From IMG/VR virus record IMGVR_UViG_3300025151_000081, positions 1 to 43,312 of that record: 43,312 nucleotides of DNA, one strand, 5' to 3'. Source of the stretch: a virus. Shown piece by piece: positions 11,032 through 35,489 of this stretch. The position numbers and the translations under genes were made by a program. The notes beneath the pieces are model-generated. The model saw nothing but the letters and a program-made list of their open reading frames with translations. It was not told the origin of the DNA and made no database searches. How positions within the stretch are numbered: the stretch's first letter is position 1; the number at the start of each line of letters is the position of its first letter.

Positions 11032-12387
11032 TTAGTCTAATTTCTTATAGAAATCGTTTAAACGGTCTCTAAACTTCTGTTTTGCCTGTTCTGGTGTGTC
11101 TAATATAGATGCACTATCACCGTGATAACCCACATCAAACTTACAAGTTGTTCCATATCTGTTTTTGGCTATAATAATCTGTTGCCCAAACTCTCCATGT
11201 TCAGCTTGCTCATATTCATATACGTATGGGTAATAGTTAAAGATTACAATTTCTGCATCTTGCTCAAGATTACCAGACTCAGCAAGGTCGCTGAGCCTTG
11301 GAATCTTATCTACACGATGCTCTATGTTACGATTTAGTTGAGAGACTAATATAACAGAACAATCAAGTTCTTTTGCAAGCCATTTATATCTTCTTGTCAC
11401 TTCGGCGATACGATGTCTAACATCTCTATTATCACGCTGTGAAAACTCAATAAAACCTATATGGTCATCAATGATTACATCAGGTCTTATCTTTTTGGCT
11501 TCTTGAATGCCTTCATCTAGACCTCTTAAATTATCAAATAAATGAAGCGATTTGTAATACTTTTTTATAAAATCTAAACCTTTTTCTATTTCTTCTCTAT
11601 GTTCTGATGCATTATTACGCATTTGCTTGTTTGGTACGGTAGTATGCATAGCTAAAAACTTTTTAACAATCTCTACTCTTGGCATCTCTCTACTAATAAA
11701 TACTACTTTCTTTCCATCAAGTATCATATTTTTAGTGATGTTAAGAGCTAAAGTACTTTTACCATTTCCAGGTCTACCAGCTATAATAGATATTTCACCT
11801 TTTGTCATACCAACAATAGCTTTATCAATAGATGCAATACCAGTCTGTACTAAGTTCTTTTTAGCAAAGATAGATTGTATCAGCTCATCATCAAGTCCTT
11901 CCATAGACTGATGCTCCATTTTAATCATATCGTTGAACTTCTCTGATATTTTACTTAAATAATCAATGTCTGATGACACATCTTTATATGATGTATCCTT
12001 CTCTATTCTGTCTTTAAATCCTACGATACGCTTCCATAGTTGTCTTCTTACAAATAAATCATAAATTGTTTTACAATGTGTTTTAAATGTAGCTTCTGTT
12101 ATGATGTCATTTTGTAGACCAGAAACATAGTAAGCAAGCTTATGACCTTTTTCTCCTAAAAAGTTTGATACTGTGGCTACATCTATATCTTTGTTTGATT
12201 CGTGTAAATAATACATAGCTCCCCAAATATGCTGGTGGTCATCCATGTAAAACACTTTGCTGGTAGTAATGAAGCTTAACGCCTCTTGCATTTTTTCTGG
12301 GTTTCTTAGCACACAACCTAAAACTTGTTTTTCAGATACGCCACTATACATCTTTGACACATCTATATTTTTATCAAAAGCATCCAT
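11032..12387 (-). CDS. dnaB: Replicative DNA helicase, DnaB-like
   Basis: 451 residues, normal length for DnaB. The N-terminal DnaB_N-like domain (residues ~15-110) begins VSEKQVLGCVLRNPEKM. The RecA core shows Walker A AGRPGNGKST (203-212), ISREMP (usual SxEM motif), Walker B DVIIDDHIGF, CSVILVSQLNR and the late motif RLSDLAESGNLEQDAEIVIF. It unwinds the fork as a hexamer. The start follows AAAGGAGGATTAG and abuts the upstream gene. It is the last gene of the leftward operon. No phage DNA polymerase or primase is recognised, so it would have to work with the host replisome. A CGTTTAAACG palindrome lies 21 nt from its stop codon, read as DRLND. Confidence 0.95.
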   Translation of the reverse strand: MDAFDKNIDVSKMYSGVSEKQVLGCVLRNPEKMQEALSFITTSKVFYMDDHQHIWGAMYYLHESNKDIDVATVSNFLGEKGHKLAYYVSGLQNDIITEATFKTHCKTIYDLFVRRQLWKRIVGFKDRIEKDTSYKDVSSDIDYLSKISEKFNDMIKMEHQSMEGLDDELIQSIFAKKNLVQTGIASIDKAIVGMTKGEISIIAGRPGNGKSTLALNITKNMILDGKKVVFISREMPRVEIVKKFLAMHTTVPNKQMRNNASEHREEIEKGLDFIKKYYKSLHLFDNLRGLDEGIQEAKKIRPDVIIDDHIGFIEFSQRDNRDVRHRIAEVTRRYKWLAKELDCSVILVSQLNRNIEHRVDKIPRLSDLAESGNLEQDAEIVIFNYYPYVYEYEQAEHGEFGQQIIIAKNRYGTTCKFDVGYHGDSASILDTPEQAKQKFRDRLNDFYKKLD

Positions 12388-12738
12388 CTAATCCTCCTTT
12401 AAATCTGGTGGTAAGCTATCTAATCTCTTACGCTCTATAATTAATTTATTCTCATACTTCTTATTCTCATTCCTTAATATACCTATAAAATAATATACAT
12501 CATAGCCTTTTCCAGCTAAGTCTTTGCGTTCCCAAATAGTAATACAATGTTTGATTATTTCGTCGTCAATGTCTTGACAAGCTTTAAGTAAAGTATAGGC
12601 TGTTAGGTCATCTAACGCTGATATGAAGAGGTCGTTTAAACGCTCTAATGTATTATCATCTAAATTCTTTTGTAGCCTTGCTATCATCTTTGGATAGTTT
12701 TTCAAGGCGTTTGACCAGCCACAAGCTGGACATCTCAT
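12388..12738 (-). CDS. Small zinc-finger-start protein next to helicase
   Basis: 116 residues starting MRCPACGW, a single CxxC, followed by a helical body with no further Cys pair. It sits directly upstream of the helicase (adjacent stop and start) and overlaps the preceding gene by 4 nt (ATGA). A helicase-loader or primase-accessory role is suggested only by position. It carries one palindrome copy in-frame (LERLND). Confidence 0.75.
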   Translation of the reverse strand: MRCPACGWSNALKNYPKMIARLQKNLDDNTLERLNDLFISALDDLTAYTLLKACQDIDDEIIKHCITIWERKDLAGKGYDVYYFIGILRNENKKYENKLIIERKRLDSLPPDLKED

Positions 12739-13185: not shown

Positions 13186-13378
13186 AGCTATACTCTGCTA
13201 CTACTTTGCCTTGAGGTGTTGATACGTGTCTAGTTTTTATAGGGTGTCCATCATTACGTAAATCCCAAATCCTAGCACTTAAACGAAAACATCCGAACTG
13301 CTCTAAAGCTGACAATGGCGTAATACGTTCACCATTTTTTAGAGCCACTAAAATCATATCATTCTGTGTTCTGTTCAT
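13175..13378 (-). CDS. Winged helix-turn-helix protein
   Basis: 67 residues from the ATG at 13378, preceded by AAGGAG. The span MNRTQNDMILVALKNG, ITPLSALEQFGCFRLSARI and WDLRNDGHPIKT matches the small phage winged-helix domain common in marine and enterobacterial phages. It probably binds DNA or packs on a replication protein. Because it is the only clear small HTH protein in the early region, it is a candidate reader of the GTTTAAAC sites, but nothing in the sequence proves that. Confidence 0.8.
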   Translation of the reverse strand: MNRTQNDMILVALKNGERITPLSALEQFGCFRLSARIWDLRNDGHPIKTRHVSTPQGKVVAEYSYEN

Positions 13379-13655
13379 CTTCTGTTTTCTCCTTATCACC
13401 ATCTAGTTCTTCAAGAACATTATTAATGTAGTTGTTAGCCAAAAACCTTTTTTCATTAAGTTGTTGTTCTAACATTTGTGTTTCTTGAGCTATTTGATTA
13501 GCTCTTACGTAAGCCATTTTTCCTTCATTACTTAAATCGCTTAAGTAGAACTTAATTTCTTCTCCATCACGATTAATGACTTGCTCACGCTCTTGTGGTT
13601 CTTGTATAGCATCTAATTCTTGTTTTGCCATATCAAGCTCTTTCATTTTTCCCAT
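13359..13655 (-). CDS. DUF6447-like small phage protein
   Basis: 98 residues; ATG at 13655 follows GGAGGAATGAC. The core VINRDGEEIKFYLSDLSNEG followed by a long helix with QIAQETQMLEQQL resembles a short protein found in many cyanophages and pelagiphages (DUF6447 type): a small beta hairpin then a coiled-coil helix. The C-terminal tail is acidic. Function unknown. The last 20 nt overlap the HTH gene. Confidence 0.68.
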   Translation of the reverse strand: MGKMKELDMAKQELDAIQEPQEREQVINRDGEEIKFYLSDLSNEGKMAYVRANQIAQETQMLEQQLNEKRFLANNYINNVLEELDGDKEKTEDEQNTE

Positions 13656-14724: not shown

Positions 14725-15264
14725 TTAAAATGGCAAGTCATCTTCTACATTAACAATGTTATCCTCCATTATTGCTTCTTTGCCTCTTGTTTCTGCTTTT
14801 AACACCATTTTAACTCTAGGTGTTTTCATGTCGTTTCCTTCTCTTCCTACCCACTCTTCAATTACTACTTCAACATCAAATAGAAAGCGTTTAAACGAAG
14901 CCAAGTCTAGCTCTGGCAATACTAGCTTGTCATCCATTTTTTGAACCATACCCATCATATCACAAAGAGCATGATAACCAGCATTACTTCCCATATCGCT
15001 TTGTAGCTGTGGGTATTTTGCTGGGTCAGGTTTCTTAAATCTAAAAAACCCTTTGTGTTTTACTTCTTTACCTTCAATATCAAACACTGGTTCATAGATG
15101 TCAGCTAAAAACTTACCACTAACCACTATGTCTTTCTTAACATTTAGGTGTTTTACAAGTACACCATTGTACTTTCCAGCTTTGACAGAACTTCCACCAC
15201 CCTGTGATTTTGGCTCATACCAAGCATCTTGTCCAAGTATATTATCTAAATCAGTATTATCCAT
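14725..15264 (-). CDS. Single-stranded DNA-binding protein-like
   Basis: 179 residues. The C-terminal tip VEDDLPF is the acidic-aromatic peptide (DDxPF) by which SSBs recruit partner enzymes. The body has the beta-strand pattern of a phage OB-fold (KAGKYNGVLVKHLNV, KHKGFFRFKKPDP, FDVEVVIEEWVG). It follows the DUF1071 annealing protein with an 8-nt overlap, the usual pairing of SSB and annealase. One palindrome copy is read in-frame as SFKRF. The host-like C-terminal tip suggests it can dock host replisome proteins. Confidence 0.8.
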   Translation of the reverse strand: MDNTDLDNILGQDAWYEPKSQGGGSSVKAGKYNGVLVKHLNVKKDIVVSGKFLADIYEPVFDIEGKEVKHKGFFRFKKPDPAKYPQLQSDMGSNAGYHALCDMMGMVQKMDDKLVLPELDLASFKRFLFDVEVVIEEWVGREGNDMKTPRVKMVLKAETRGKEAIMEDNIVNVEDDLPF

Positions 15265-16079: not shown

Positions 16080-16869
16080 TACACCTCCTCGGTATTGTGT
16101 TAGTATTTAGATGCTCTAAAAGTACATCTCTCTTGTTCGTAAAATACGAAACAATTTCTTTATTGTCAACCATTGGTATATTAACAAAATAAATATTTTT
16201 ATCTACCCCTCTGGCAATAGCTGAATGTGTACCAGCATCTCTGACATTCATTTGTAGTTTCATTGCTTTAACTTTATGTCCTTTCTTCTCTAATAAATAT
16301 CTATACATATTTACTTGATATAGCCAATCTCCAAAGTCTGCTTTGCTTTCGTCTCTATGAAATACTTTAACCTGTTTAAACGCTCCCTTCCTACCCCAAG
16401 CTCCTGACTTTTTGTATCTTGCTCCTGATGGGTCTGGCATCATAACGTGTGTCATTCCTAGTACTTTAGATGCTTTGAAACTACCTGTGTTTTTATAATC
16501 AATAAGTGTTTCCGTATCTTTATCATAAAAGTCTAAGATACCTGTAATATCTAATCCTTCTAATTTTTCTTCCTGTATTGCACTATCATCAAGCTCTTGG
16601 CTTTCTAAGTGCAAGTGATGAATAGTTCCCATTACAGCAAATGCCATATCTTGTGGGTCAACATAATATTCTTCAGTTCTTTTTAGATAAGCCTCACAAG
16701 TTCCAGACAATAGTTCTGTTGTGCTTGGAGGTCTGTCGTTTGGTCTCTGGTCTGACATCATCTTTAATGTGGCTACACTCATACAACGCTCTGACATACG
16801 ACATTCTTTTAGACATCGTTTAAACGCTATCTGTTCTCCATCTGGACAAATAAATCCTACTGCACCCAT
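15991..16869 (-). CDS. Cas4/RecB-like PD-(D/E)XK exonuclease
   Basis: 292 residues from ATG 16869, chosen because AAAAAAGGAGTTTTT precedes it; the frame stays open upstream to 16914 but into an inverted repeat. N-terminal Cys near CLKECRMSERC and three more near the C-terminus (CEKYCEVRGLCPY, plus RRC) form the Fe-S type cluster of Cas4/AddB-like nucleases. The catalytic core shows LDITGILDFYDKDTETLIDYKN (GxxD, then DYKN). It resects DNA ends for the annealase encoded next. Two palindrome copies are read in-frame as AFKQ and AFKR. Confidence 0.85.
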   Translation of the reverse strand: MGAVGFICPDGEQIAFKRCLKECRMSERCMSVATLKMMSDQRPNDRPPSTTELLSGTCEAYLKRTEEYYVDPQDMAFAVMGTIHHLHLESQELDDSAIQEEKLEGLDITGILDFYDKDTETLIDYKNTGSFKASKVLGMTHVMMPDPSGARYKKSGAWGRKGAFKQVKVFHRDESKADFGDWLYQVNMYRYLLEKKGHKVKAMKLQMNVRDAGTHSAIARGVDKNIYFVNIPMVDNKEIVSYFTNKRDVLLEHLNTNTIPRRCNDEETWNGKKCEKYCEVRGLCPYVNGLGE

Positions 16870-17406: not shown

Positions 17407-17435
17407 TTAATAATATACATTAGTTTTATGGTCAA
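17407..17435 (-). promoter_or_regulatory. Promoter for the 68-residue gene
   Basis: -35 TTGACC (17435-17430), 17-nt spacer, -10 TATTAA (17412-17407). The 18-bp composite element TTTGACCTCGTTTAAACG (17449-17466, plus strand) lies just upstream, the palindrome 21 nt from the -35. Confidence 0.5.
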
Positions 17436-17459
17436 AGTCTACTATTATTTTGACCTCGT

Positions 17460-17708
17460 TTAAACGTCTTTAGCGTTATATATTTTTTGAATTTCTAACA
17501 GCTGTTCAGTAAATGCTTTTATAGTATATGGTATATCAATATATACTTTTTTTAATCCTTTGTCATCTGTTTCCATTACATAGAATAGCTCTTGCTTTAC
17601 AATAGGTATTGCATTGCTGTCTAGATGGTCTTGTAGTTTTTTTACTTTACCTTCAACAGCATCATTATAGTTTTTGTTTTGTAGTTCTATATTTTTTTCT
17701 TTTTTCAT
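17460..17708 (-). CDS. Unknown charged protein; stop codon supplied by palindrome
   Basis: 82 residues, Lys/Glu-rich at the N-terminus (MKKEKNIELQNKNYNDAVEG), then an alpha/beta body (ELFYVMETDD, KKVYIDIPYTIKAFTEQLLEI). Translation ends GAC GTT TAA inside a CGTTTAAACG palindrome (17457-17466), so the repeat provides the stop. It overlaps the upstream gene by 4 nt. Function unknown. Confidence 0.72.
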   Translation of the reverse strand: MKKEKNIELQNKNYNDAVEGKVKKLQDHLDSNAIPIVKQELFYVMETDDKGLKKVYIDIPYTIKAFTEQLLEIQKIYNAKDV

Positions 17709-17941
17709 TTGTCCTCCTTGTTTGTAAAAAAATCTGCTAAACTAAATATCCCTAATTTATATTTCTGATGTTGTAATTTTTTTCTTTTTACTTCTTTCTT
17801 TTTATATAGTTTTTTTAAACTTTTATCACTCCACGACCTATCAATTTTTATTTCAAGTTCTTTAATTTCATCTTTTAGTTCTGATACTCTTTTTCTAAGA
17901 TGTTTAATTGTTGTTTTAATGTTTTTAGATGTTTTGCTCAT
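17705..17941 (-). CDS. Coiled-coil basic protein, unknown
   Basis: 78 residues, almost entirely Lys/Glu/Leu helix (KHLRKRVSELKDEIKELEIK, LKKLYKKKEVKRKKLQHQK), predicted coiled coil, with a short hydrophobic C-terminal segment (LGIFSLADFF). Overlaps of ATGA type at both ends place it in the operon. Nucleic-acid or protein bridging is possible; nothing specific is visible. Confidence 0.68.
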   Translation of the reverse strand: MSKTSKNIKTTIKHLRKRVSELKDEIKELEIKIDRSWSDKSLKKLYKKKEVKRKKLQHQKYKLGIFSLADFFTNKEDK

Positions 17942-18072
17942 TTTCTTTTAACCCTTATTGATGTTCCACCTGGAAAAAGCATAAACTCATACCCAAGTTC
18001 ATCTAGTTTTATAATTAACTTTTTAATTAATTTGTGTATTTTTAAAGCTCTTTTTGAATTTTCTTCTTTCAT
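17938..18072 (-). CDS. 44-residue basic protein, unknown
   Basis: MKEENSKRALKIHKLIKKLI begins a basic helix, followed by ELGYEFMLFPGGTSIRVKRK, a beta hairpin with a Gly-Gly turn. Its start overlaps the upstream stop (TAATG) and its stop overlaps the next start (ATGA), so translational coupling is clear on both sides. The helix-hairpin layout could be a small DNA- or RNA-binding fold. Confidence 0.65.
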   Translation of the reverse strand: MKEENSKRALKIHKLIKKLIIKLDELGYEFMLFPGGTSIRVKRK

Positions 18073-18317
18073 TAGTTTAGTCCTTTCATTTCATCCCAAG
18101 TTTGTATATACGAACAATAGCTACAAGCTTTCTTATCTCGTTTAAACGCTGTCTTCGTCATAGTGTTAATTCTATCTATTAAGGTTATTGCTAACTCTTT
18201 ACGACCTCTGATGATGTCTGCTGTACCATCAGTGATTAAATCTATCTCAGTCTCTGATACAAGCTCTTCATCTAAAAAATCTCTAATTGTATTTAAAATT
18301 TCTCTATTTGTCATCAT
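18072..18317 (-). CDS. Unknown protein with C-terminal Cys pair
   Basis: 81 residues; two adjacent ATGs (18317, 18314) follow GGAGGTAG. The N-terminal two-thirds is helical and acidic (REILNTIRDFLDEELVSETE). The C-terminus has KACSYCSYIQTWDEM, a CxxC that could bind metal with a partner. One palindrome copy is read as AFKRD 67 nt from the stop. Function unknown. Confidence 0.7.
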   Translation of the reverse strand: MMTNREILNTIRDFLDEELVSETEIDLITDGTADIIRGRKELAITLIDRINTMTKTAFKRDKKACSYCSYIQTWDEMKGLN

Positions 18318-18660
18318 CTACCTCCTCTTCTATGGTGTCGTTTAAACTATCCAACATATCTATCAAATTGTTTTTCATATTGATGAAATTATCTGGGTCT
18401 TTAAAGTTAGTAGATAAACCTCTTTCTTGAACACTACGCAATCTTGCTGGAATGACTTTGGTATCATTACAAAAATTACAGCATCTTCCATTTGCCTTTG
18501 GCTCTGCATTGTGTCCGTCTGTCCATATTGCTACGCCATTTTTGTACAGCACATCAAGAGCATCTCCACAAAGCACGCAGAATTTTTTTGCTTTACCTAC
18601 AACTTTTTCGTTCCACTCTCCGTATCCAGTACGGCTATAAAATTTTATCTTATCGCTCAT
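18304..18660 (-). CDS. Zinc-binding phage protein (GHNAxPxxxGRCCxxC family)
   Basis: 118 residues from ATG 18660 (AGGAGTGTGGAA in front). CVLCG is followed by VAIWTDGHNAEPKANGRCCN and FCNDTKVIPARL, a widespread phage zinc-knuckle signature of unknown role. The C-terminal tail is acidic and helical. One palindrome copy lies 36 nt from the stop, read as DSLND. It overlaps the genes on both sides by a few nucleotides. Confidence 0.78.
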   Translation of the reverse strand: MSDKIKFYSRTGYGEWNEKVVGKAKKFCVLCGDALDVLYKNGVAIWTDGHNAEPKANGRCCNFCNDTKVIPARLRSVQERGLSTNFKDPDNFINMKNNLIDMLDSLNDTIEEEVDDDK

Positions 18661-18845
18661 TTCCACACTCCTGTATGTTTCTTATTTTTATCTTCAAAGA
18701 GCTGTCTTATAGCTCCCATCTTCACATCAAATTGTTCTACCATATCATCATCAGACAATAGATAGTTGCCGTCTTCATCTATGTAATAGTAAACATTTAG
18801 TGTTATTTCAAATGGTACGCCTTTAGTGTCTTTTTTCTTTTTCAT
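18657..18845 (-). CDS. Unknown 62-residue protein
   Basis: Starts MKKKKDTKGVPFEITLNVYY and continues with YIDEDGNYLLSDDDMVEQFD, a short beta-rich piece followed by an amphipathic helix. It is coupled to both neighbours by ATGA overlaps. No motif recognised. Confidence 0.62.
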   Translation of the reverse strand: MKKKKDTKGVPFEITLNVYYYIDEDGNYLLSDDDMVEQFDVKMGAIRQLFEDKNKKHTGVWK

Positions 18846-19264
18846 TTTACCTCCTCCAACGCATCTTCACAAGCGTCTGCAAAAGCAAGTTCTTTTTCAT
18901 TAACAAATTCTTGCCATTCTTCATCAGACATATTTTCATCTACGTGTTCTTTTTCATACCACTGACAAAGAAATACACCTTTGTTAATCAAATCAGTGAA
19001 ATGCTTGCTTTCTTCTTCTGTTAACAATCCTATTGTTAGATGATTTTTTAGATGAGGTGGAGTATCAGGTGTCAATATTTTAACAGCCTCTTGTAGCCCT
19101 TTGATATAATTAATATCTCCACGATTTTCGTTATACCAAATTTTGTAAGCTACTTTATCTTCAAAGTCTCTTTCTTCCGTGTCTGCATTATATCCAGACC
19201 ATTCTTTAAGTGCATCTTGTTCTTTATTTATTTTTGTTTGTATTTCTTGTATTTTTTTTTGCAT
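18842..19264 (-). CDS. Acidic helical protein, unknown
   Basis: 140 residues, strongly acidic. The N-terminus is a coiled-coil helix (KKIQEIQTKINKEQDALKEW) and the C-terminus an acidic helix (DACEDALEEVK). The start follows AACAAAGGAGTTTGAT and has its own promoter at 19317-19346. The DNA-mimic-like charge could suit an anti-host or anti-defence protein, but this is speculative. Confidence 0.72.
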   Translation of the reverse strand: MQKKIQEIQTKINKEQDALKEWSGYNADTEERDFEDKVAYKIWYNENRGDINYIKGLQEAVKILTPDTPPHLKNHLTIGLLTEEESKHFTDLINKGVFLCQWYEKEHVDENMSDEEWQEFVNEKELAFADACEDALEEVK

Positions 19265-19316
19265 ATCAAACTCCTTTGTTAGTCTTAGTGTTCTGCTAGC
19301 TTGCTAGCTCTTTGTT

Positions 19317-19346
19317 AGTTTAGCTAGTATGTTAGCAACTTGTCAA
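19317..19346 (-). promoter_or_regulatory. Promoter upstream of the 140-residue gene
   Basis: -35 TTGACA (19346-19341), 18-nt spacer, -10 TAAACT (19322-19317), the same -10 as the small-RNA promoter. The leader contains repeated GCTAG motifs. Confidence 0.55.
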
Positions 19347-19627
19347 GCATTTTCTCTTAATTTTTTCATTCTTATATCAAACTCTTTTTCTGTCTCGTTT
19401 AAACGCTCTATGTGTGTATGGTCATCATATATTTCTCTAGATAGTTTTCTAACTCTACCTTCTCTGTTATCTTCAGTTTTAAAAACAAACCAGCGATATA
19501 CATCATTAGTTTGCCAAGCCATCGCAATAGCCTCGTTTATATCCCAATCAGATAAAAATCCCCTTATCTCAATCTCATATTCACAAGTCCACAATCTAGT
19601 TTCTTTTATTTTGTGTTTTTTACTCAT
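19343..19627 (-). CDS. Unknown small protein
   Basis: 94 residues, alpha/beta (RLWTCEYEIEIRGFLSDWDI, then MAWQTNDVYRWFVFKTEDNR) with a charged C-terminal helix. A palindrome copy is read as ERLNE 54 nt from the stop. It starts with a 4-nt overlap of the upstream gene, after AAAGGAGGAAGT. Function unknown. Confidence 0.68.
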   Translation of the reverse strand: MSKKHKIKETRLWTCEYEIEIRGFLSDWDINEAIAMAWQTNDVYRWFVFKTEDNREGRVRKLSREIYDDHTHIERLNETEKEFDIRMKKLRENA

Positions 19628-20115
19628 ACTTCCTCCTTTGTTATGTTATGTAAAAATGTTGGTGGTACAAATACTTCTTGTTCCTGTTCCCAATAAACCA
19701 AAAAGTCAAGAGCGTTTAAACGACCTGTGTAAACTACTGGTTGTTTGTCTTTCTTGACCTTTGCAAACCTAGTTGCAAACCAATAGGCTCTGTTCTTATC
19801 CAGTGTCCAGCTAAAGCCGTGTTCATACTCTCCAAGAGTACCTCTGTATAAAAGTATCTCATCGTGTTCCATCAGTATATCTTCGTATATCTCATACTCT
19901 CTTGTATCCATAGTATAGCCTATATCATCGTAGTAGTAAGTTAGTATGTTCTGTAAGTCTTTGTTCGTCATCATCGTGTGAACATTATCAATAGCTGTGT
20001 AGTCTTGTCTGAAATACTGCCAAAACTTTGATGGCTCTATCTTGTTCTTAGCTAGGTCTTGTACCATCATAGCTATGCCACCCTGTTGATAGTAGTTATT
20101 TATTATGTCTTCCAT
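19624..20115 (-). CDS. Unknown 163-residue early protein
   Basis: Start set at ATG 20115, where GGAGGGTAT precedes it; an upstream start at 20148 would run through the promoter. The central part reads TREYEIYEDILMEHDEILLY then GTLGEYEHGFSWTLDKNRA and WFATRFAKV, weakly recalling ADP-ribosyltransferase-like folds (RG...W/S...A-W-F), but no catalytic Glu can be assigned. One palindrome copy is read as GRLNA. It has its own strong promoter. Confidence 0.7.
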   Translation of the reverse strand: MEDIINNYYQQGGIAMMVQDLAKNKIEPSKFWQYFRQDYTAIDNVHTMMTNKDLQNILTYYYDDIGYTMDTREYEIYEDILMEHDEILLYRGTLGEYEHGFSWTLDKNRAYWFATRFAKVKKDKQPVVYTGRLNALDFLVYWEQEQEVFVPPTFLHNITKEEV

Positions 20116-20140
20116 ATACCCTCCGTGTGTTAGTGAGTTG

Positions 20141-20174
20141 CTTGACATTAGCTAATCCTAAAACCAATGTCAAG
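20141..20174 (-). promoter_or_regulatory. Promoter inside a 9-bp inverted repeat (operator-like)
   Basis: -35 TTGACA (20173-20168), 17-nt spacer, -10 TAATGT (20150-20145). The arms CTTGACATT (20141-20149) and AATGTCAAG (20166-20174) are perfect inverted copies 25 bp centre to centre and cover both promoter boxes. The composite TTTGACCTCGTTTAAACG (20182-20199) lies 16 nt upstream of the -35 when measured from the palindrome. Confidence 0.65.
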
Positions 20175-20203
20175 CTATTTGTTTGACCTCGTTTAAACGA
20201 TGT

Positions 20204-20515
20204 CTACAACCATATACAATATTGATTAGTGTGTAATTTAAAGATTTTTCTCCAAACTCTAATCATCAAGTTCCCTACAATCGTTATGACACTTATCCAA
20301 GTAAAGAATAACAAGATGTTTTCCAGAAATATATGTCCAGCACTCGTTAGATATGTGTAGTCGTGATGACTTAATAACAGCACTAAAAATACACATACCA
20401 TTTGAGAGTAGATAAATACACTCATCAATACTCTGTTTATACTTGTTAATGATTTACTTAAATCGTTTCTAAATTTCATTTCTGAGCTTTTGCTCATACC
20501 TGTTTTATTATTCAT
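20204..20515 (-). CDS. Membrane protein with two transmembrane segments
   Basis: 103 residues from ATG 20515 (AAGGAGGCAAT). A basic N-terminal region is followed by TM1 (VLMSVFIYSQMVCVFLVLLL) and TM2 (IFLENILLFFTWISVITIVG), then a basic tail. The two-TM hairpin is holin-like in shape, but the location in the early operon argues more for superinfection exclusion or envelope modulation. A CGTTTAAACG copy lies 5 nt past the stop. Confidence 0.75.
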   Translation of the reverse strand: MNNKTGMSKSSEMKFRNDLSKSLTSINRVLMSVFIYSQMVCVFLVLLLSHHDYTYLTSAGHIFLENILLFFTWISVITIVGNLMIRVWRKIFKLHTNQYCIWL

Positions 20516-20528
20516 ATTGCCTCCTTTG

Positions 20529-21440
20529 TTAAGCACTAATATATCCACTTCTTGACCAATTCCAATGTTCTCTATCTTGAACAATGTCTAAGTAAGATGT
20601 TTGAAACTCTTTTGCTCTTTGATTAATGTAGTAAGATGCGTCGTATCTATGACCTCTGCTTTCCTTACGCTCTTTCTCATAAGCTTGATAGCTTTTGATT
20701 AAGTTCCTTAACATACCAGCAAATCTTGACTGCTCATCATAAGGACCATTGTTAATTACAAAGATACAAGTCTTTCTAGCTTTTCTAAATTTATTCTTAA
20801 TAGACACTGGGTCGTTTAAACGGCTCTTGTACATTGCTGATAATTTTGCCCAGAACTCTTCTTTTATCTGCTTATCGTCTTTCCACTTCAGATTATTTTC
20901 TAGGTGTTGTCTTCTCTCACTTGCTTTGTCTTGAGCTGTCATATACGGCATATCTTCTTTCAAAGATAGATGTAAGTATTTAACTACTAATCCGTCTTCA
21001 TTCACTGCTCTTCTAATACCAGAAATACTCTGCAATCCTTTGATATTACTTCCAAAAGTATATGTGCTGTAAGAGTAAGAACTTCTTCCACATATACTAG
21101 CTGTGTATTCTCTTCCTCCGTGTGCTCCTCTGTGTCTAAGCCACTCTTCTCTGTACCACATAGGTTTACCATCTTTAAGAACTAATACCACTTCATCTTT
21201 TTTAATATGAATAGTCTCATACCAATTATGGCTACGACCTCGTAGCTGTCTCCATTCTACATCCTCTTGAGCAATGATAAATACGATACCCTCTTTTACT
21301 ATGGTGTCGTTTAAACGGAGCTCATCGTCTTGCAATTTGTTCCAATCTATTCCTAGTTTTGCTCCAAGATTTTTAAACCTTTTTAACTGGTGTCTAGTGT
21401 TCCAGTGGCTCAGTTTTAAGTTGTTAATTGTTTTATTCAT
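20529..21440 (-). CDS. Unknown 303-residue early protein
   Basis: Basic, rich in Arg, Trp and Tyr (EWRQLRGRSHNWYETIHIKK, WYREEWLRHRGAHGGREYTA). A Ser/Tyr-rich centre and a long helical C-terminal half follow. Start at 21440 after AGGAGGTATT. Two palindrome copies are read in-frame (SRLND, LRLND). It is the first gene behind the promoter at 21468-21496. No family or catalytic motif recognised; nucleic-acid binding would fit the composition. Confidence 0.72.
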   Translation of the reverse strand: MNKTINNLKLSHWNTRHQLKRFKNLGAKLGIDWNKLQDDELRLNDTIVKEGIVFIIAQEDVEWRQLRGRSHNWYETIHIKKDEVVLVLKDGKPMWYREEWLRHRGAHGGREYTASICGRSSYSYSTYTFGSNIKGLQSISGIRRAVNEDGLVVKYLHLSLKEDMPYMTAQDKASERRQHLENNLKWKDDKQIKEEFWAKLSAMYKSRLNDPVSIKNKFRKARKTCIFVINNGPYDEQSRFAGMLRNLIKSYQAYEKERKESRGHRYDASYYINQRAKEFQTSYLDIVQDREHWNWSRSGYISA

Positions 21441-21467
21441 AATACCTCCTAGTTTGTGTGTTAGCTA

Positions 21468-21496
21468 ATACTATTAAATTCTAAAACAAGTGTCAA
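21468..21496 (-). promoter_or_regulatory. Strong sigma70-type promoter
   Basis: -35 TTGACA (21496-21491), 17-nt spacer, -10 TAGTAT (21473-21468). The spacer CTTGTTTTAGAATT is nearly the same as in the promoters near 20160 and 22710. The composite TTTGACCTCGTTTAAACG (21505-21522) lies upstream with the same 16-nt palindrome to -35 gap as at 20190. Confidence 0.7.
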
Positions 21497-21515
21497 GACT
21501 TTTTTTTGACCTCGT

Positions 21516-21743
21516 TTAAACGCCCTCTTTCATTTCTTTCAGTTGTCTGTTTATTGTATCTAACATAATCTCTGCTTGTGTGTTTTCAGTTTCAAAGATA
21601 GTATACTCTACTCTTTCTTCATCATAATATCTGCCATCATAATCTTTGAACTCTCTATCCATTACTTCTTTGTTGCGTTTTAGCGTATTCTCGCAACTTG
21701 ATTTAATACCCATTACTATTGTTTTATAATCTGGTCTTTCCAT
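21516..21743 (-). CDS. Unknown 75-residue protein; stop from palindrome
   Basis: Helical and charged (MERPDYKTIVMGIKSSCENT, ENTQAEIMLDTINRQLKEM). It ends GGC GTT TAA within CGTTTAAACG (21513-21522). It lies between two other unknown early genes; the start is preceded by GAGGACAAT. Function unknown. Confidence 0.68.
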   Translation of the reverse strand: MERPDYKTIVMGIKSSCENTLKRNKEVMDREFKDYDGRYYDEERVEYTIFETENTQAEIMLDTINRQLKEMKEGV

Positions 21744-21770
21744 ATTGTCCTCCTCTCGTTTAAACGCTGT

Positions 21771-22331
21771 CTACAACAGCTTAGTGCCTACACCAAATTT
21801 ATCTTCTACTAACTCATTGATTTTTTTGACTAAATCCCTATCGAATAAATAGCTATCATAACTACCATTATCTAGTTTTTTTCTAGAATTATTAATAGTA
21901 TTGTAGTCTCTGAAAAATAAGTCAGCCTCATCCATTAGTTTTATTGTGCTAGCTATAACATCACTCATACTATCAAACTCTCCATTATTAGCGTAAAATC
22001 CAATAACATAATATCCTTCCATATCCTTATTAAATCCTCGCTTTTTGTCGTGAGCCCATTGCCAGCTGTCTGGTTCTTTTACCAAGTGAAATCCAGCTGT
22101 TAGCTCTCTGTCATAAAAAGGTATTTGTTTTACTTTGTTTTCTTCACCAGTCATAGCATCGTAGTTTGCTAAGTCTGGGCTATAAGCAAATAAATTTTCA
22201 TTAGCCCAAGGGTGTCCTGGAGGTAAAGCTACATAACCACAGCCCCATCCATTTCTTGTATCATTTTCTTTAATAGTCCAGTAGTAAATTGTACCATCTG
22301 CTTTTGTTTCCTTTATCCATCTCTCTTTCAT
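21771..22331 (-). CDS. Conserved phage protein of unknown function (GYVALPPGHP)
   Basis: 186 residues. The segment WGCGYVALPPGHPWANE is recognisable in many tailed-phage and metagenomic proteins of unknown function. Downstream come GFHLVKEPDSWQWAHD, a Gly/Asn region and a C-terminal helical part. Start after AAGGAGGACAAT. A palindrome lies 5 nt past the stop. The Cys-Gly-Tyr and Trp-rich core suggests an enzyme or binding domain, but no active site is clear. Confidence 0.75.
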   Translation of the reverse strand: MKERWIKETKADGTIYYWTIKENDTRNGWGCGYVALPPGHPWANENLFAYSPDLANYDAMTGEENKVKQIPFYDRELTAGFHLVKEPDSWQWAHDKKRGFNKDMEGYYVIGFYANNGEFDSMSDVIASTIKLMDEADLFFRDYNTINNSRKKLDNGSYDSYLFDRDLVKKINELVEDKFGVGTKLL

Positions 22332-22352
22332 ATTGTCCTCCTTAGAGCTCGT

Positions 22353-22658
22353 TTAAACGCTCTGTGTTTTATTTTTCTTTGTTCCATTTTCGTTTCTACC
22401 AAACATCCAAGCTTTACTAAAATTGTTCAAGCTGTCCAGTGTCTCTGGGTCTGTTGGTAAAAAAGACATAAGAAATCTTTTTTGTTCTGCTGTTTGACCC
22501 CAAGCATCAGCATTGTTTATAACTGGTCGCATTGGGTTATTCTCATCTCTGCCAGCATCAGAGAAAAGCATATTTAAAGCCATCTCTCCGTCTTCAGCTG
22601 TCATACTCAAAGTTATATCTCTTTTTGTAAGATGACAAAATATAGTTAAAGTTTTCAT
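22353..22658 (-). CDS. Unknown early protein; stop from palindrome
   Basis: 101 residues from ATG 22658, after ACACACAAAGGAGGCGAT; an open frame upstream to 22724 would cover the promoter. N-terminal beta strands with Cys/His (MKTLTIFCHLTKRDITLSMT) precede a helical part (WGQTAEQKRFLMSFL). Its stop is provided by CGTTTAAACG (22350-22359). The leader is a possible target of the small RNA. Confidence 0.7.
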   Translation of the reverse strand: MKTLTIFCHLTKRDITLSMTAEDGEMALNMLFSDAGRDENNPMRPVINNADAWGQTAEQKRFLMSFLPTDPETLDSLNNFSKAWMFGRNENGTKKNKTQSV

Positions 22659-22691
22659 ATCGCCTCCTTTGTGTGTTTTGCAATATGTAGG

Positions 22692-22720
22692 AAATTTGCA
22701 AATCCTAAAACCAATGTCAA
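22692..22720 (-). promoter_or_regulatory. Promoter-like module, weak -10
   Basis: TTGACATTGGTTTTAGGATT (leftward from 22720) is the same block as in the promoter at 20173. At 17-nt spacing the -10 would be AAATTT (22697-22692), which is poor. It probably serves the gene starting at 22658, perhaps with an activator. Confidence 0.45.
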
Positions 22721-22750
22721 GCAAAAAAATAAAAATATTTTTAAAAAGTT

Positions 22751-22779
22751 TTCATAGTATAAAAAAGCCCAGATGTCAA
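22751..22779 (-). promoter_or_regulatory. Promoter overlapping a terminator hairpin
   Basis: -35 TTGACA (22779-22774), 17-nt spacer, -10 TATGAA (22756-22751). The same DNA forms hairpin CCCAGA (22797-22792 strand complement) / TCTGGG with six T after it at 22766-22761 on the leftward strand, so read-through from upstream could be stopped where new initiation begins. Confidence 0.45.
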
Positions 22780-22797
22780 GAACTTTTTTTTTCTGGG
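22761..22797 (-). terminator. Possible leftward terminator
   Basis: Six-bp stem (22792-22797 with 22768-22773), 18-nt A-rich loop, then CTTTTTT. Weaker than the one at 23029-23054. Confidence 0.45.
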
Positions 22798-23028
22798 TGA
22801 TTTTGCTCCTCTATAAACGCCAGAGAATAGCCCTAGAACGCAATAAAATAAAAAAAAGGTCTTATGGTATGCTTGTTTTTATCTGTCCTCGGAAACCTTG
22901 TTAAAATATTCCAGAATTTAGAGCCGTAAATAAAACGCTGTTTAAACGCTGTTAAGTTATCCACATTTTATTAACAATTTGTGGAAAACTATTTAAGGTC
23001 GTTTAAACGCTGTTAAGAAAATTTAGAC

Positions 23029-23054
23029 AAAAAAAAAGGGCTATTTCTAGCCCT
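23029..23054 (-). terminator. Strong rho-independent terminator
   Basis: AGGGCTA (23037-23043), loop TTTC, TAGCCCT (23048-23054). Nine T follow on the leftward strand and six T on the rightward strand. It ends the transcript of the 158-residue gene and insulates the candidate origin. Confidence 0.85.
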
Positions 23055-23075
23055 CTTTTTTTAGTTGGTCTTGCT

Positions 23076-23552
23076 TTAGAATGTAAAGCCAGCAACATCT
23101 TCTGGCATTACCCAGCCACAAGCCGTGTAAATAGATTTCATATTTTGAAAATCTTTTACGATGCTCTGGCTGGTGTGTTTGCCTCCGCCTATGACATATT
23201 TTTTATCTGGCTCAATTTCTACAAGCTCTGTTGGTGTAGAGATATAAGCTTTGCCTTTAATCTGTCTTACTCTACAGGTCAAGCCGTAAGTCTCGAACAA
23301 GCCGTTTAAACGCTCTCTAGTCGTTGGTGTGTTCCAGCCAGCTAAAGAGAACCAAAGCCCCTTGCTGATTTTATTGAATTGAGCTATCCAATTATTATGA
23401 AGATACATATCCGATTGTATAGCGTTCTTCTCTATTTTTGAGCCGTTTAATACTGGCATTTCTATTGTTCTTACTTCTACTCTGGTATTATCCATTTTCA
23501 TTGGCTTTTGATTTAAAAAAGCCTCTGCTGTTTTTAGTGTTATTTTTCTCAT
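23076..23552 (-). CDS. Unknown 158-residue protein
   Basis: Starts MRKITLKTAEAFLNQKPMKM. Central part NWIAQFNKISKGLWFSLAGW, then ERLNGLFETYGLTCRVRQIK and a beta-rich C-terminus. It resembles small phage single-domain proteins of unknown role. The start overlaps the 48-residue gene's stop (TAATG). One palindrome is read as ERLNG. Transcription ends at the strong terminator 22 nt downstream. Confidence 0.72.
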   Translation of the reverse strand: MRKITLKTAEAFLNQKPMKMDNTRVEVRTIEMPVLNGSKIEKNAIQSDMYLHNNWIAQFNKISKGLWFSLAGWNTPTTRERLNGLFETYGLTCRVRQIKGKAYISTPTELVEIEPDKKYVIGGGKHTSQSIVKDFQNMKSIYTACGWVMPEDVAGFTF

Positions 23553-23698
23553 TATTTCGCCTCCTGTCTTCTAGCTTTCGCTCTGTTTAAACGCTGTTTA
23601 ATCTTCTTAGCGTCTCTGTTCTCTCTGGCTTGTCTGCCTTGCTCTGCTTGAGCCTCTAAGCCCTTAATTTGTACTGCTGTTAAGCCTGTATAGTTCAT
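23552..23698 (-). CDS. 48-residue basic helical protein
   Basis: MNYTGLTAVQIKGLEAQAEQ begins it and QRLNRAKARRQEAK ends it. It is a Lys/Arg/Gln helix, starting after CTAAGGAGGTATT, an excellent ribosome site, and coupled by TAATG to the next gene. A palindrome copy (23584-23593) is read as QRLNR 33 nt from the stop. A small nucleic-acid-binding helix is possible. Confidence 0.72.
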   Translation of the reverse strand: MNYTGLTAVQIKGLEAQAEQGRQARENRDAKKIKQRLNRAKARRQEAK

Positions 23699-23742
23699 AA
23701 TACCTCCTTAGGTATGGTTGTTTAATTTAAGCCTAAGACTAG

Positions 23743-23765
23743 AGACGCCGTTTAAACGACGCCCC
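23743..23765. repeat. Extended palindrome hairpin around CGTTTAAACG
   Basis: The core (23749-23758) is extended on both sides by GC-rich partly paired sequence (gacgcCGTTTAAACGacgcc), giving a ~11-bp imperfect hairpin downstream of the metalloprotease stop. There is no U-tract, so simple rho-independent termination is unlikely. Confidence 0.55.
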
Positions 23766-23791
23766 CAGTTTCGCCCTTGTGGGCTCGTCAG

Positions 23792-24628
23792 TTAGGCATC
23801 CTCCCATTTTAGCTCTTCTGTGATGTTGCCGATAGTGTCGTCAAGGTTTTGCTTGCCGTTGACTTTCTCGTTATCATTCACCAGACTAAAAAACTTGTCG
23901 ATGCTAATAATAGCTCCGCCGTATTTTTTGCCTAGTTGAATGTGATAATCGCCCTCACCACAGCATAAACAAGTTCTGCTGGTCATCTGCTCTATTCTCA
24001 AACGATTTGTATTAAATCCGTGGTCGCAATCGTTCTCTGTGCCGTGGCAAACAACTTTTAAATTTCTGTTTGTATCACGGCGTAAGCCCTCAAGATTTAC
24101 CTCTTGAAGTGGGAACTTTCCGATGGTCTTAATGATGCCGTTTAAACGACCTTTAAGTTCCTCTCCAGCGTATGTGCTGGTTAGCTTGCCCTCAAGTCCG
24201 ATAGTTCTCGCCATCTTGTCGAACGCTCCGCCTTTTTTGTGTCCACTTTTATTGTCGTCAATAGCGTGAATTAATTCGTGGGCTAATGTGTCCAGAACAT
24301 CGACGCTGTTATTTGTGCCTGTCGTCGCAATATTCATCTGAATAATATTGACAACCTCTTTTTTTGGTTTGTCTTTGCCAGCCGTGTAGTGCGTTGGGTA
24401 GCATAGCCCTAGTGTCGTGTGTCCGTGGGTTTTGTTCGCTGTTCTAAGCTGTGAAACATTGATACGAATATTCTTCGGAACTTTAAAGCCGTGCGGTCTA
24501 AAAACTTTGTCGCTTAACTCTTGCGTCGCTTTTTCAAACCATTTCGTAATTGCTACATCGTGATTAATTACCTTGAACTGCTTAACTTTTTTCTGTGCGT
24601 TTTGGGTCGCCACCACTTTTTTCTTCAT
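23792..24628 (-). CDS. SprT-like zinc metallopeptidase
   Basis: 278 residues from ATG 24628 (CGGAGAAACAA). The zinc site is LAHELIHAIDD (HExxH) followed by KSGHKKGGAFDKMARTIGLE, as in phage SprT-like proteins. A C-terminal zinc ribbon shows CHGTENDCDHGF and CLCCGEG. Family members cleave or bind DNA-associated proteins; a target here is unknown. The gene uses clearly more G and C (GCC, CGC, GAC codons) than its neighbours, a sign of recent acquisition. It has the best promoter of the region. One palindrome is read as GRLNG. Confidence 0.85.
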   Translation of the reverse strand: MKKKVVATQNAQKKVKQFKVINHDVAITKWFEKATQELSDKVFRPHGFKVPKNIRINVSQLRTANKTHGHTTLGLCYPTHYTAGKDKPKKEVVNIIQMNIATTGTNNSVDVLDTLAHELIHAIDDNKSGHKKGGAFDKMARTIGLEGKLTSTYAGEELKGRLNGIIKTIGKFPLQEVNLEGLRRDTNRNLKVVCHGTENDCDHGFNTNRLRIEQMTSRTCLCCGEGDYHIQLGKKYGGAIISIDKFFSLVNDNEKVNGKQNLDDTIGNITEELKWEDA

Positions 24629-24661
24629 TTGTTTCTCCGTTTTATGTGTGTAAATCAAGTT

Positions 24662-24690
24662 AATATAATGATTATTTTTCAATCTGTCAA
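24662..24690 (-). promoter_or_regulatory. Near-consensus sigma70 promoter for the metallopeptidase
   Basis: -35 TTGACA (24690-24685), exactly 17 nt, -10 TATATT (24667-24662). A palindrome-centred hairpin (GGGGGCGTTTAAACCCCC, 24691-24708) abuts the -35 on the upstream side, 5 nt away, where a bound protein would touch RNA polymerase. Confidence 0.8.
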
Positions 24691-24710
24691 GGGGGCGTTT
24701 AAACCCCCTC
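24691..24710. repeat. G/C-extended GTTTAAAC hairpin at promoter
   Basis: GTTTAAAC (24697-24704) is flanked by GGGG(G)C and CCCCC, giving a ~9-bp stem with one mismatch. It lies between the stop of the 148-residue gene and the -35 of the metallopeptidase promoter, so it may act as terminator, operator, or both. Confidence 0.6.
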
Positions 24711-24726
24711 AACATTTCGCCTTGGC

Positions 24727-25173: not shown

Positions 25174-25325
25174 TAGTTTTTCTCCTTTTTGTGTTAATAA
25201 TTAATCTAATTTTCAAATACATAAGAACTTACTTTTTCTGACGATAACATACAAGATATTTCTATTCGTTCTCTGGGAGTGAAGGCATCTGGGGGCTGTT
25301 TAAACGGAGTTATATATATGTATGA

Positions 25326-25979: not shown

Positions 25980-26169
25980 AAAAGATATACTGTATCATAT
26001 AGCTCTCATTAGACAGGATATATTTAAACTACATGAGAAAACGATGTTAATAGAATCAGTCATTAATAAATATATTAAAATGAAAAAAGATACAGATAAA
26101 TTTAATAAATTTTTACAAGACGAAATAAAGGGAGCTAAAGTTGAAAAAACTAAAGAAGATAAAAAATAA
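25948..26169 (+). CDS. Basic coiled-coil protein, unknown
   Basis: 73 residues from ATG 25948 (AAAGGATAAAAAGA in front); an upstream ATG at 25852 in the same frame would overlap the conserved 47-residue gene fully and is less likely. It begins MPIKKPKKPTKKDILYHIAL, a basic tail and then a helix through KMKKDTDKFNKFLQDEIKGA. The end overlaps the next gene by 29 nt. Function unknown. Confidence 0.6.
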   Translation: MPIKKPKKPTKKDILYHIALIRQDIFKLHEKTMLIESVINKYIKMKKDTDKFNKFLQDEIKGAKVEKTKEDKK

Positions 26170-26482
26170 AACAATGAAGCTACCTATAAACGGTCACGAG
26201 TATACGATTCGTTTTATATCTGGTGCTAAAGTAGACCTAGGTTCAGATGAATCAGAAATACTAGGTGCTATTTCTATGCGTAACTGTGAAATAGTACTAG
26301 AACACGAAATGAAAGATAGTAAACTACTAGAAGTGTTAATACATGAAGTATTACATGGTATTACACACGGAACTAGTTTAGACATGACTGAAACGCAAAT
26401 ACAAGTATTATCTAATAGTTTGTACCAACTGGGTTTTGGTGAATACTTATGGAAAAAAGCAGGAGGAAAATATGATTCCTAA
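26141..26482 (+). CDS. Small HExxH putative metallopeptidase
   Basis: 113 residues with a TTG start at 26141 after GGGAGCTAAAG; ATG 26174 lacks a ribosome site. VLIHEVLHGITHG carries HExxH, then EtQIQVLSNSLYQLGFGE could provide the third ligand, as in short phage gluzincin-like proteins. The N-terminal part is a beta sheet (LPINGHEYTIRFISGAKVDL). Target unknown. It precedes the Nmad1-like gene with an 11-nt overlap. Confidence 0.7.
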   Translation: MKKLKKIKNKTMKLPINGHEYTIRFISGAKVDLGSDESEILGAISMRNCEIVLEHEMKDSKLLEVLIHEVLHGITHGTSLDMTETQIQVLSNSLYQLGFGEYLWKKAGGKYDS

Positions 26483-26801: not shown

Positions 26802-27537
26802 TCCAGGTAAAATATTAGAACACAATACAAAAAAGGCTAAAGTAAACCTACATTGTCTTACTGACATACACGTAGGTAGTAAAGTCTTTGATAGAAGTCT
26901 GTTTTTAAAAGCAGTACAGATGATAGATGAAGACCCAAATGCACTTTGGTTCGGAAATGGTGATATGTTAGAGTTTATACCACCTAATTACCATATACCA
27001 GAGGGCGACCAGTTGTTTGATAACAACGAACAGTACGCTCAATTTGTACAAATGATAAGACCTATCATGAATAAGTGTGTATTTCTACGTGGAGGTAATC
27101 ATGATACGCTACGTTCTGTTAGATTAGCAGGAATTGATATAATTCGTGTGCTATGTGACGACCTTGAAGTACCATATTACCCATTTCCAGGGTATGCAGT
27201 GATTAATTACAAGCATAATCGCTTCACATTTGCAAGTGGACATGGAAAAAGTGGTGCTAAGAACGGAGATATGGAGCTAACTAGACTTAGAAACATATTT
27301 CCAGACGCTGATATGTATTATTTGGGGCATAACCACCAATTATACGCAAAACCAGTAGATTCTTTTGAAATTATGCAAGATAGCGAAGAAGTAAGAAGAC
27401 AATGGTTTGTGCGTGGGGGTTCTTTTATAGGATATGCTGAATATGCACGCTATGCTATGTTTGAACCACAAACAAAAGGATGGGTAGAAGTGCGTTTAAG
27501 TGATAAAAACCCAGAATACATCGTACACCGTAAATGA
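26794..27537 (+). CDS. Calcineurin-like metallophosphoesterase
   Basis: 247 residues from ATG 26794 (CGGAGAACAGA). All metal-binding motifs are present in order: CLTDIHVG (DxH, residues ~24-26), WFGNGDMLE (GNGD), FLRGGNHDT (GNHD), FASGHGKSG (GH) and YLGHNHQLY (GHNH). Family enzymes hydrolyse phosphodiesters of nucleotides or nucleic acids. Adjacent genes (Nmad1-like, terminase) suggest a role in nucleotide or DNA processing before packaging. It overlaps the terminase small subunit by 4 nt (ATGA). Confidence 0.88.
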   Translation: MINPGKILEHNTKKAKVNLHCLTDIHVGSKVFDRSLFLKAVQMIDEDPNALWFGNGDMLEFIPPNYHIPEGDQLFDNNEQYAQFVQMIRPIMNKCVFLRGGNHDTLRSVRLAGIDIIRVLCDDLEVPYYPFPGYAVINYKHNRFTFASGHGKSGAKNGDMELTRLRNIFPDADMYYLGHNHQLYAKPVDSFEIMQDSEEVRRQWFVRGGSFIGYAEYARYAMFEPQTKGWVEVRLSDKNPEYIVHRK

Positions 27538-28307
27538 AGAAAAGAACTATAAAAGGTCAGGAGCACATTGTATATGACAATATCAACGAGCTCAGGCAGG
27601 CTATGCCATTACAAGACGTACTAGAAGATTGGCGAAACGCTCCAGTTAGTTCATGGACCTTAACAGATGATGGGCAGGTTTGTGAGGTGTTAGAACGTGG
27701 GGTTATTAACAATCAACGATATGTACGCACTGCGATTGGAATGTTTAACTGTGCTCCTACCATAAAAATGGAAGGCGAACTACGACAAAGTATATACAAG
27801 TTTAGTGGTAAAAACTCTAATACTGTATTTAAAGAACGTGAGAAGCCTACAAAGAAAGAATTTTTGTTTGCAAAGTATGTTGCGAAGGGAGATGGGATAA
27901 TAGAAGCGTTTAAACAAGCTTATCCTCAATCTAAGTCTGAGCAATATATTAAAGAACAAAGTAGTATGTTATTAAAAACAGAAAGGATAAAAACCTTGAT
28001 TGACAAAGAAATACAAAAAATATTAGAAAAAACAGAGATAACACCAGAGTATCTACTGCTAAAGACAAAAGAGATTGTAGATAATATTGAAGCAAGAGAT
28101 AGCGATAAGATTTCGTCGCTAAAGATGTTGATGGAAATATCTGGGTTACTAGGTAAGAAAGAACAAAAAACTGAATCTATCGCATTGTTTAAGGGTTTTA
28201 GCCCTGAACAACTAGCAGCATTGGAAGGGAAAGATGTCAAAAAAATTGCAAGCCAAGAACGAGAAATACCTCAACTGCCAGATGTGCGAGAGGAAAGTGA
28301 AGATTAA
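27534..28307 (+). CDS. terS: Terminase small subunit
   Basis: 257 residues. The DNA-binding part is TKKEFLFAKYVAKGDGIIEA then FKQAYPQSKSEQYIKEQSS, an HTH-type terminase small-subunit domain (~110-170), followed by a helical oligomerisation region. The N-terminal ~100 residues are an extra domain of unknown fold. It recognises the packaging site and loads the large subunit. A CGTTTAAACA copy (27907-27916) is read as AFKQ inside this gene. The last 74 nt overlap the next gene. Confidence 0.85.
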   Translation: MKKRTIKGQEHIVYDNINELRQAMPLQDVLEDWRNAPVSSWTLTDDGQVCEVLERGVINNQRYVRTAIGMFNCAPTIKMEGELRQSIYKFSGKNSNTVFKEREKPTKKEFLFAKYVAKGDGIIEAFKQAYPQSKSEQYIKEQSSMLLKTERIKTLIDKEIQKILEKTEITPEYLLLKTKEIVDNIEARDSDKISSLKMLMEISGLLGKKEQKTESIALFKGFSPEQLAALEGKDVKKIASQEREIPQLPDVREESED

Positions 28308-35465: not shown

Positions 35466-35489
35466 GGGAGGGCGTTTAAACGCTCTCCC
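35466..35489 (+). terminator. Palindrome-centred GC-rich hairpin after capsid genes
   Basis: CGTTTAAACG (35473-35482) is extended to a 12-bp stem: GGGAGGGCGTTT pairs with AAACGCTCTCCC with one G-T. It sits between the decoration gene and the next gene. No U-tract follows, so it is either a weak terminator, an RNA-end stabiliser for the abundant capsid message, or a binding site. Confidence 0.55.

Follow-up and report, generated by a model that had tools for sequence, protein, structure and literature searches.

The closest described counterpart of the system considered here is the stoperator system of Cluster A phages (L5 gp71 / TipsytheTRex), in which one phage repressor uses more than 20 dispersed sites, located in promoters and in transcribed units, with an orientation bias relative to transcription (PMC9283540). 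L5-type repressors are helix-turn-helix (HTH) two-domain monomers with a 13-bp asymmetric site. A second point of comparison is the SprT/Spartan (SPRTN) family, PF10263, whose members combine an HExxH protease subdomain with a C-terminal zinc-binding subdomain. SPRTN cleaves DNA-protein crosslinks, and binding to a specific duplex sequence is not known for it. Here we describe a palindrome dispersed over the genome of a marine phage, IMG/VR record IMGVR_UViG_3300025151_000081 (43,312 bases, GC 34%; this whole record is the window referred to below), and the SprT-like zinc protein proposed to read it. As in Cluster A, the sites are many, dispersed over promoters and transcribed units, and, where asymmetric, biased in orientation; they overlap core promoters and the promoter of the SprT-like gene itself (in Arthrobacter Cluster AZ and Microbacterium Cluster EH phages and in a group of IMG/VR loci termed L111-like). 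Unlike in L5, the candidate reader is a SprT-like zinc protein, the site is an 8-bp (near-)palindrome that also occurs inside genes, and the system is found in unrelated phages of several host phyla. Membership in the Cluster A (L5-like) repressors was rejected, as an 8-10-bp palindrome is here paired with a zinc protein and not with an HTH gp71 homologue and a 13-bp asymmetric consensus.

We put the probability at roughly 0.6 that the SprT-like protein binds the palindrome and silences early genes as a multi-site, autoregulated, stoperator-like repressor. According to this model, the C-terminal zinc domain would contact GTTTAAAC-family sites across the genome, and the protein would control its own gene, silence early transcription through promoter occlusion, and probably obstruct RNA polymerase at sites within operons in the manner of a stoperator. 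Binding by the SprT-like protein is well supported by the genome comparisons below, whereas the physical contact itself, repression rather than activation, and a block to elongation are what we infer from them. The elements at the center of the proposal are the following.

23792..24628, minus strand: gene for the SprT-like zinc protein (278 amino acids from ATG, HELIHA motif), the first gene behind the promoter at 24690-24662 and the proposed palindrome reader.
23936..24118, minus strand: C-terminal zinc domain of this protein, the proposed DNA-binding part (RRDTNRNLKVVC...C..C), which aligns with stand-alone 55-residue domain proteins of palindrome-rich phages.
24662..24690, minus strand: promoter of the SprT-like gene, TTGACA-17-TATATT.
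24696..24705, on the minus strand: site GGTTTAAACG, upstream of the SprT promoter with 5 nucleotides (nt) between it and the -35 (center about -45.5), kept in 5/5 aligning relatives.

The palindrome is strongly overrepresented in the window. At no more than one mismatch, CGTTTAAACG occurs 26 times (19 exact and 7 one-off copies) against a chance mean of 0.65, and none of 100 shuffles reached 26. Almost all copies lie within 11.0-25.3 kb. The leftward early block extends from the DnaB-like helicase gene (11032-12387) up to about 25.2 kb and includes genes for a Sak annealing protein and an exonuclease; the structural genes (terminase, portal, capsid, internal virion protein) make up the right side of the window. 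Among the 24 early-region sites, 13 are inside genes, 3 on stop codons, and 8 intergenic, and the non-internal fraction (11/24) exceeds the 13% non-coding share (p = 1e-4). Megablast against known phages returned no match for the window or for L100, L147, and L127.

Relatives were retrieved by TerL and DnaB. Genomes whose DnaB is at least 83% identical form a clade that has the repeat, and the sister clade, at 65-67%, has none. When the window sites were projected onto eight relatives, 163 of 168 comparisons showed an intact 8-base core, versus 54% of neighboring 8-mers; in the most diverged relative, 17/17 sites are kept versus 21% of neighboring 8-mers. The sites are thus near-invariant although half of them are intragenic.

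Comparisons with unrelated phages link the repeat to the SprT-like protein. A DNA scan recovered unrelated phages (GC 41-63%) with extreme counts of GTTTAAAC, for example 34 copies in 12.4 kb versus 0.27 expected. In profile searches with all window proteins, the SprT-like protein was found in 65 unrelated palindrome-rich loci, in 0 poor loci, and in none of the sister clade, a specificity that the DnaB and TerL profile matches did not have. Of 173 rich fragments, 77 were matched by a profile of the C-terminal zinc domain, which matched none of the 115 poor fragments. Since the palindrome-rich set had been chosen by motif, the test was reversed, and SprT homologues were retrieved from sequenced phages and IMG/VR by protein alone. 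The SprT-like protein is the sole window protein common to all of the SprT-selected isolates (13/13). Among IMG/VR loci retrieved in this way, those of the L254-like group (five Celaena-query loci included) contain 606 sites versus 8 expected, with the site as the top-ranked 8-mer in 77 of 85, and those of the L111-like group contain 807 versus 6.6 expected (top-ranked in 45 of 46). A search of bacterial and archaeal genomes for three clustered copies of GTTTAAAC (L321-L400) returned, besides scattered matches, mostly regularly spaced repeats containing GTTTAAAC that resemble arrays of clustered regularly interspaced short palindromic repeats (CRISPR).

Three other window proteins were considered as readers and rejected. 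The HTH_39 winged-helix protein (13175-13402, minus strand) is also kept in the palindrome-free sister clade; a small HExxH protein (26141-26482, plus strand; HEVLHG, lacking the zinc domain) is shared by clades that have palindromes and clades that lack them; and a Kyano_Gp96-like protein (23076-23552) is present in all members of the palindrome clade but in just 2 unrelated rich loci.

Among sequenced isolates, site enrichment depends on a short motif in the C-terminus of the SprT-like protein. All 14 isolates with KQ[STG]TR are enriched (13 strongly), as opposed to 0/5 without it. With this motif, the near-palindrome GTGTAAAC is the first- or second-ranked 8-mer in Zeta1847, Soondubu, Tweety19, Maureen, Cen1621, Honk, Phives, Powerpuff, Reedo, IAmGroot, Henoccus, and Marky, and GTTTAAAC has that rank in Methylophilales phage Venkman; Klebsiella phage KA2-1 (KPKQSTR) is weakly enriched, with 4 copies versus 0.2 expected. 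Celaena, Eden, Armstrong, Bordetella FP1, and Pseudomonas Epa5, which do not have the motif, contain 0 or 1 copy each, and no other hidden repeat motif was found in Celaena, Bordetella FP1, or Epa5. The host does not decide site presence, since Microbacterium foliorum phages differ: sites occur in Cen1621 and Honk but are absent from Celaena, Eden, and Armstrong. In the latter three (L441, L445, and L619) the SprT C-terminus reads KSRSG[KR]SIKL, and no dispersed site was found. Two further loci deviate from the motif. In L532, the SprT protein has KKQPTR and the top 8-mers are ATTTAAAT and ATTTAAAC, possibly a specificity variant of the same system. In L587, the active-site motif is kept, KKKKTYLLK replaces KxQxTR, GTTTAAAC is absent, and the top 8-mer is CTTTAAAG (4 copies in 6 kb).

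In these sequence comparisons, the protease part is dispensable. HExxH is lost in 45 of 46 L111-like proteins while the sites are kept, and several phages carry the ~55-residue zinc domain alone (KQTTRLRKVLC..YIARISRSTLITYGSPICPACNQ) together with 20-26 sites per 10 kb. The window protein matches PF10263 with E=5e-5 and 23.5 bits, slightly under the 25.6-bit gathering score, and phrog_6361 with E=1.2e-21, and it retains the HExxH zinc-protease motif. For its AlphaFold2 model (pLDDT 82.7, pTM 0.60), the only significant PDB match was human Spartan (6MDW; E=5e-4), at a low TM-score of 0.39. The 55-residue domain resembles a zinc ribbon, and a fold search with it gave weak zinc-ribbon-like matches, none with E <0.001. 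Proteins of the system belong to phrog_6361 and phrog_34373, both listed as "unknown function", for which sequence-specific DNA binding is now proposed. However, family membership alone does not predict sites, since Celaena-type members match these phrogs (Celaena matches phrog_34373 strongly) and are without the site.

The positions of the sites at promoters bear on what the protein might do there. In Arthrobacter Cluster AZ, the site directly follows the -10 element (TTGCG[CT]-N18-TAGACT-GTTTACAC; 5 promoters in Powerpuff and 5 matches in Tweety19). In Microbacterium Cluster EH, it is located in the spacer (TTGCGC-N4-GTTTACAC-N5-TATGAT; 9 in Zeta1847 and 13 in Honk). Protein bound at either position would occlude RNA polymerase. 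A site at the promoter of the SprT gene itself was found in the AZ and EH isolates inspected, in Henoccus, and in L228/L249, and an exact site is present no more than 110 nt upstream of 33/33 L111-like genes versus 25% of random points. The orientation of the asymmetric GTGTAAAC sites matches that of transcription in 56 of 76 cases (three AZ/EH phages, p=4e-5); this bias cannot be scored for the symmetric window site. The overlap with core promoters, the own-promoter sites, and the orientation bias together suggest a multi-site autoregulated repressor.

In the window, the promoter-linked sites outside the SprT gene are as follows.

21468..21496, minus strand: promoter TTGACA-17-TAGTAT.
21513..21522: site 16 nt upstream of the promoter at 21496 (center about -56.5), overlapping the stop codon of gene 21516-21743.
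20145..20173, minus strand: promoter TTGACA-17-TAATGT.
20190..20199: site 16 nt upstream of the promoter at 20173.
17407..17435, minus strand: weak promoter TTGACC-17-TATTAA.
17457..17466: site 21 nt upstream of the promoter at 17435, overlapping the stop codon of gene 17460-17708.

The original prediction described these as palindrome-plus-promoter modules of fixed geometry, built on an 18-mer (TTTGACCTCGTTTAAACG) repeated identically at 17449-17466, 20182-20199, and 21505-21522. An exact search recovered all three copies, where 0.02 would be expected by chance even with 3 mismatches allowed. The 16-nt gap between palindrome and TTGACA and the shared TTGACAyTkGTTTTAG spacer hold at 20182-20199 and 21505-21522, as does the 5-nt distance of the 24696 palindrome from its promoter. 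The claim that every 18-mer lies directly upstream of a leftward promoter stands for 20182 and 21505; at 17449 the promoter is weak and the gap is 21 nt. Alignment of the promoters of related phages, which had been proposed as a check, revealed the 16-nt gap at nearly every aligned instance, including the diverged L083, the departure being a 15-nt gap at one promoter in L008/L075. Promoter-like matches in the region are not in excess over shuffles (60 vs 57.6), although the site-linked promoters are conserved in relatives. The prediction had further held that early promoters are activated or blocked by a palindrome protein. The evidence for a protein reader is strong, and blocking is favored over activation, because sites in relatives overlap the -10/start or the promoter spacer and recur inside genes. 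What the prediction missed is the intragenic half of the sites, so that "palindrome plus promoter" covers only part of the pattern, and the occurrence of the system in phages unrelated to this one.

The remaining sites in the window are listed below.

11055..11064: within the DnaB-like helicase gene, kept in 8/8 relatives.
12633..12642: within gene 12388-12738.
14888..14897: within gene 14725-15264.
16373..16382: TGTTTAAACG, within the exonuclease gene.
16817..16826: within the exonuclease gene.
18139..18148: within gene 18072-18317.
18339..18348: CGTTTAAACT, within gene 18304-18666, kept in 2/3 relatives.
19396..19405: within gene 19343-19627.
19713..19722: within gene 19624-20148.
20813..20822: within gene 20529-21440.
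21308..21317: within gene 20529-21440.
21757..21766: immediately upstream of the ribosome-binding site of gene 21516-21743.
22350..22359: on the stop codon of gene 22353-22661, upstream of gene 21771-22331.
22939..22948: flanking a DnaA-box-like pair.
23000..23009: flanking the same DnaA-box-like pair.
23303..23312: within gene 23076-23552.
23584..23593: intergenic, upstream of gene 23076-23552.
23749..23758: intergenic, downstream of the SprT-like gene.
24139..24148: within the SprT-like gene.
25297..25306: TGTTTAAACG, downstream of the promoter at 25417-25390.
27907..27916: CGTTTAAACA, within gene 27534-28307 (terminase small subunit).
35473..35482: sole structural-region site, intergenic, kept in 5/5 aligned relatives.

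At 22939-23009, two palindromes surround an inverted DnaA-box-like pair (TTATCCACA at 22957-22965 and TGTGGAAAA at 22980-22988), which adjoins a strong terminator-like hairpin (23028-23063) and is a possible replication origin. Two palindromes form the centers of longer G+C-rich inverted repeats, AGGGGG-TTTAAAC-GCCCCCT at 24692-24712 and GGGAGaGCG-TTTAAA-CGCcCTCCC at 35468-35487.

Several observations weigh against a multi-site repressor. The promoter-linked sites of the window lie upstream of the -35 (centers about -45.5 and -56.5), a position also open to an activator, and the 60 nt upstream of a third promoter of the TTGACATTGGTTTTAG spacer family (22692-22720, minus strand) are free of palindromes in the window and four relatives. 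A pure promoter repressor would have no need of the many sites located in late or coding DNA. The window protein has RRDTNR, and its clade RRDTNR/KRDKNR, in place of KQxTR, so that the motif rule holds loosely in this clade. The lineages compared are partly dependent, and the negatives represent two or three lineages. Exact sites are scarcer upstream of the SprT gene than at random points in the L254-like group (6/80 vs 22%). Sites with no more than one mismatch are enriched there within 80 nt (32/80 vs 13%), which is compatible with a weakened autoregulatory operator. The palindrome-free promoter at 22692-22720 constitutes a natural control promoter.

The same protein might bind its sites mainly for genome organization, compaction, segregation, replication, or promoter activation, with the overlap of promoters and autoregulation as by-products. 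Such a role would accommodate sites that run through coding DNA about every 300-600 bp, the pair flanking the DnaA-box-like sequences at 22957-22988, and window promoter sites upstream of the -35. We nonetheless regard it as unlikely, given the overlap with core promoters at fixed positions in two phage groups, the near-universal own-promoter sites of one group, and an orientation bias resembling that of stoperators. It is less probable still that another phage protein binds the palindrome and that the SprT-like protease removes this binder, as ImmA cleaves ImmR. The window protein and many relatives do have HExxH, and "DNA binding protein" genes lie close to SprT in AZ and EH phages, but nearly all L111-like loci and the zinc-domain-only phages keep their sites without this motif, no further window protein co-occurs with the sites, and Celaena combines a neighboring DNA-binding protein and an active-site SprT with no sites.

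Dispersed, sequence-specific sites are also what a host nucleoid protein or regulator would use. However, the sites in M. foliorum phages follow the SprT C-terminus, and the motif recurs across phages of Arthrobacter, Microbacterium, Streptomyces, Methylophilales, and Klebsiella; a host reader is accordingly very improbable, and the same-host comparisons led us to discard it. We assign an equally small chance to recombination boundaries, mobile-element remnants, or RNA hairpins. Several sites do fall on stop codons and gene junctions, and those at 24696 and 35473 are within longer inverted repeats, yet each site holds its position in relatives whose flanking sequence has diverged, the sites occupy all reading frames, the core could form no more than a 3-bp RNA stem, and Rfam returned no match.

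Repression by the SprT-like protein would have different consequences in different phages. Powerpuff (AZ) forms stable, immune lysogens, and AZ and EH phages are without an identifiable repressor (PMC8758107). Powerpuff contains 27 GTGTAAAC sites and a SprT protein with KQTTR. In the regions inspected, serine integrases are present in the site-bearing Arthrobacter and Microbacterium phages and not in Celaena, Eden, and Armstrong, a pattern that fits an immunity role. The SprT system is thus a strong candidate, on comparative grounds, for the immunity repressor of temperate AZ and EH phages. No integrase was recognized among the window proteins scanned, which suggests early-gene shut-off rather than immunity; in the window phage, the SprT-like protein may shut down early genes during infection.

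More broadly, we tentatively suggest, at somewhat less than even odds, that the zinc domain founds a new class of regulators that bind DNA sequence-specifically, down to 55 residues in size, that silence whole genomes through GTTTAAAC-family sites in unrelated phages from different bacterial phyla and include the missing AZ/EH repressor. In the open-access literature, we found no paper proposing SprT as a repressor or stoperator protein, and a pattern search for GTTTAAAC/GTGTAAAC with phage returned primers and similar only. The C-terminal K.Q.TR motif and GTTTAAAC/GTGTAAAC sites provide a simple rule for predicting carriers of the system. If the proposal is true, the "SprT-like protease" of well over a hundred sequenced phages is a sequence-specific DNA-binding regulator, phrog_6361 and phrog_34373 gain a function and a binding site, a ~55-residue DNA-binding module becomes available for study, and Powerpuff of Cluster AZ has a specific candidate for the repressor it must encode (PMC8758107).

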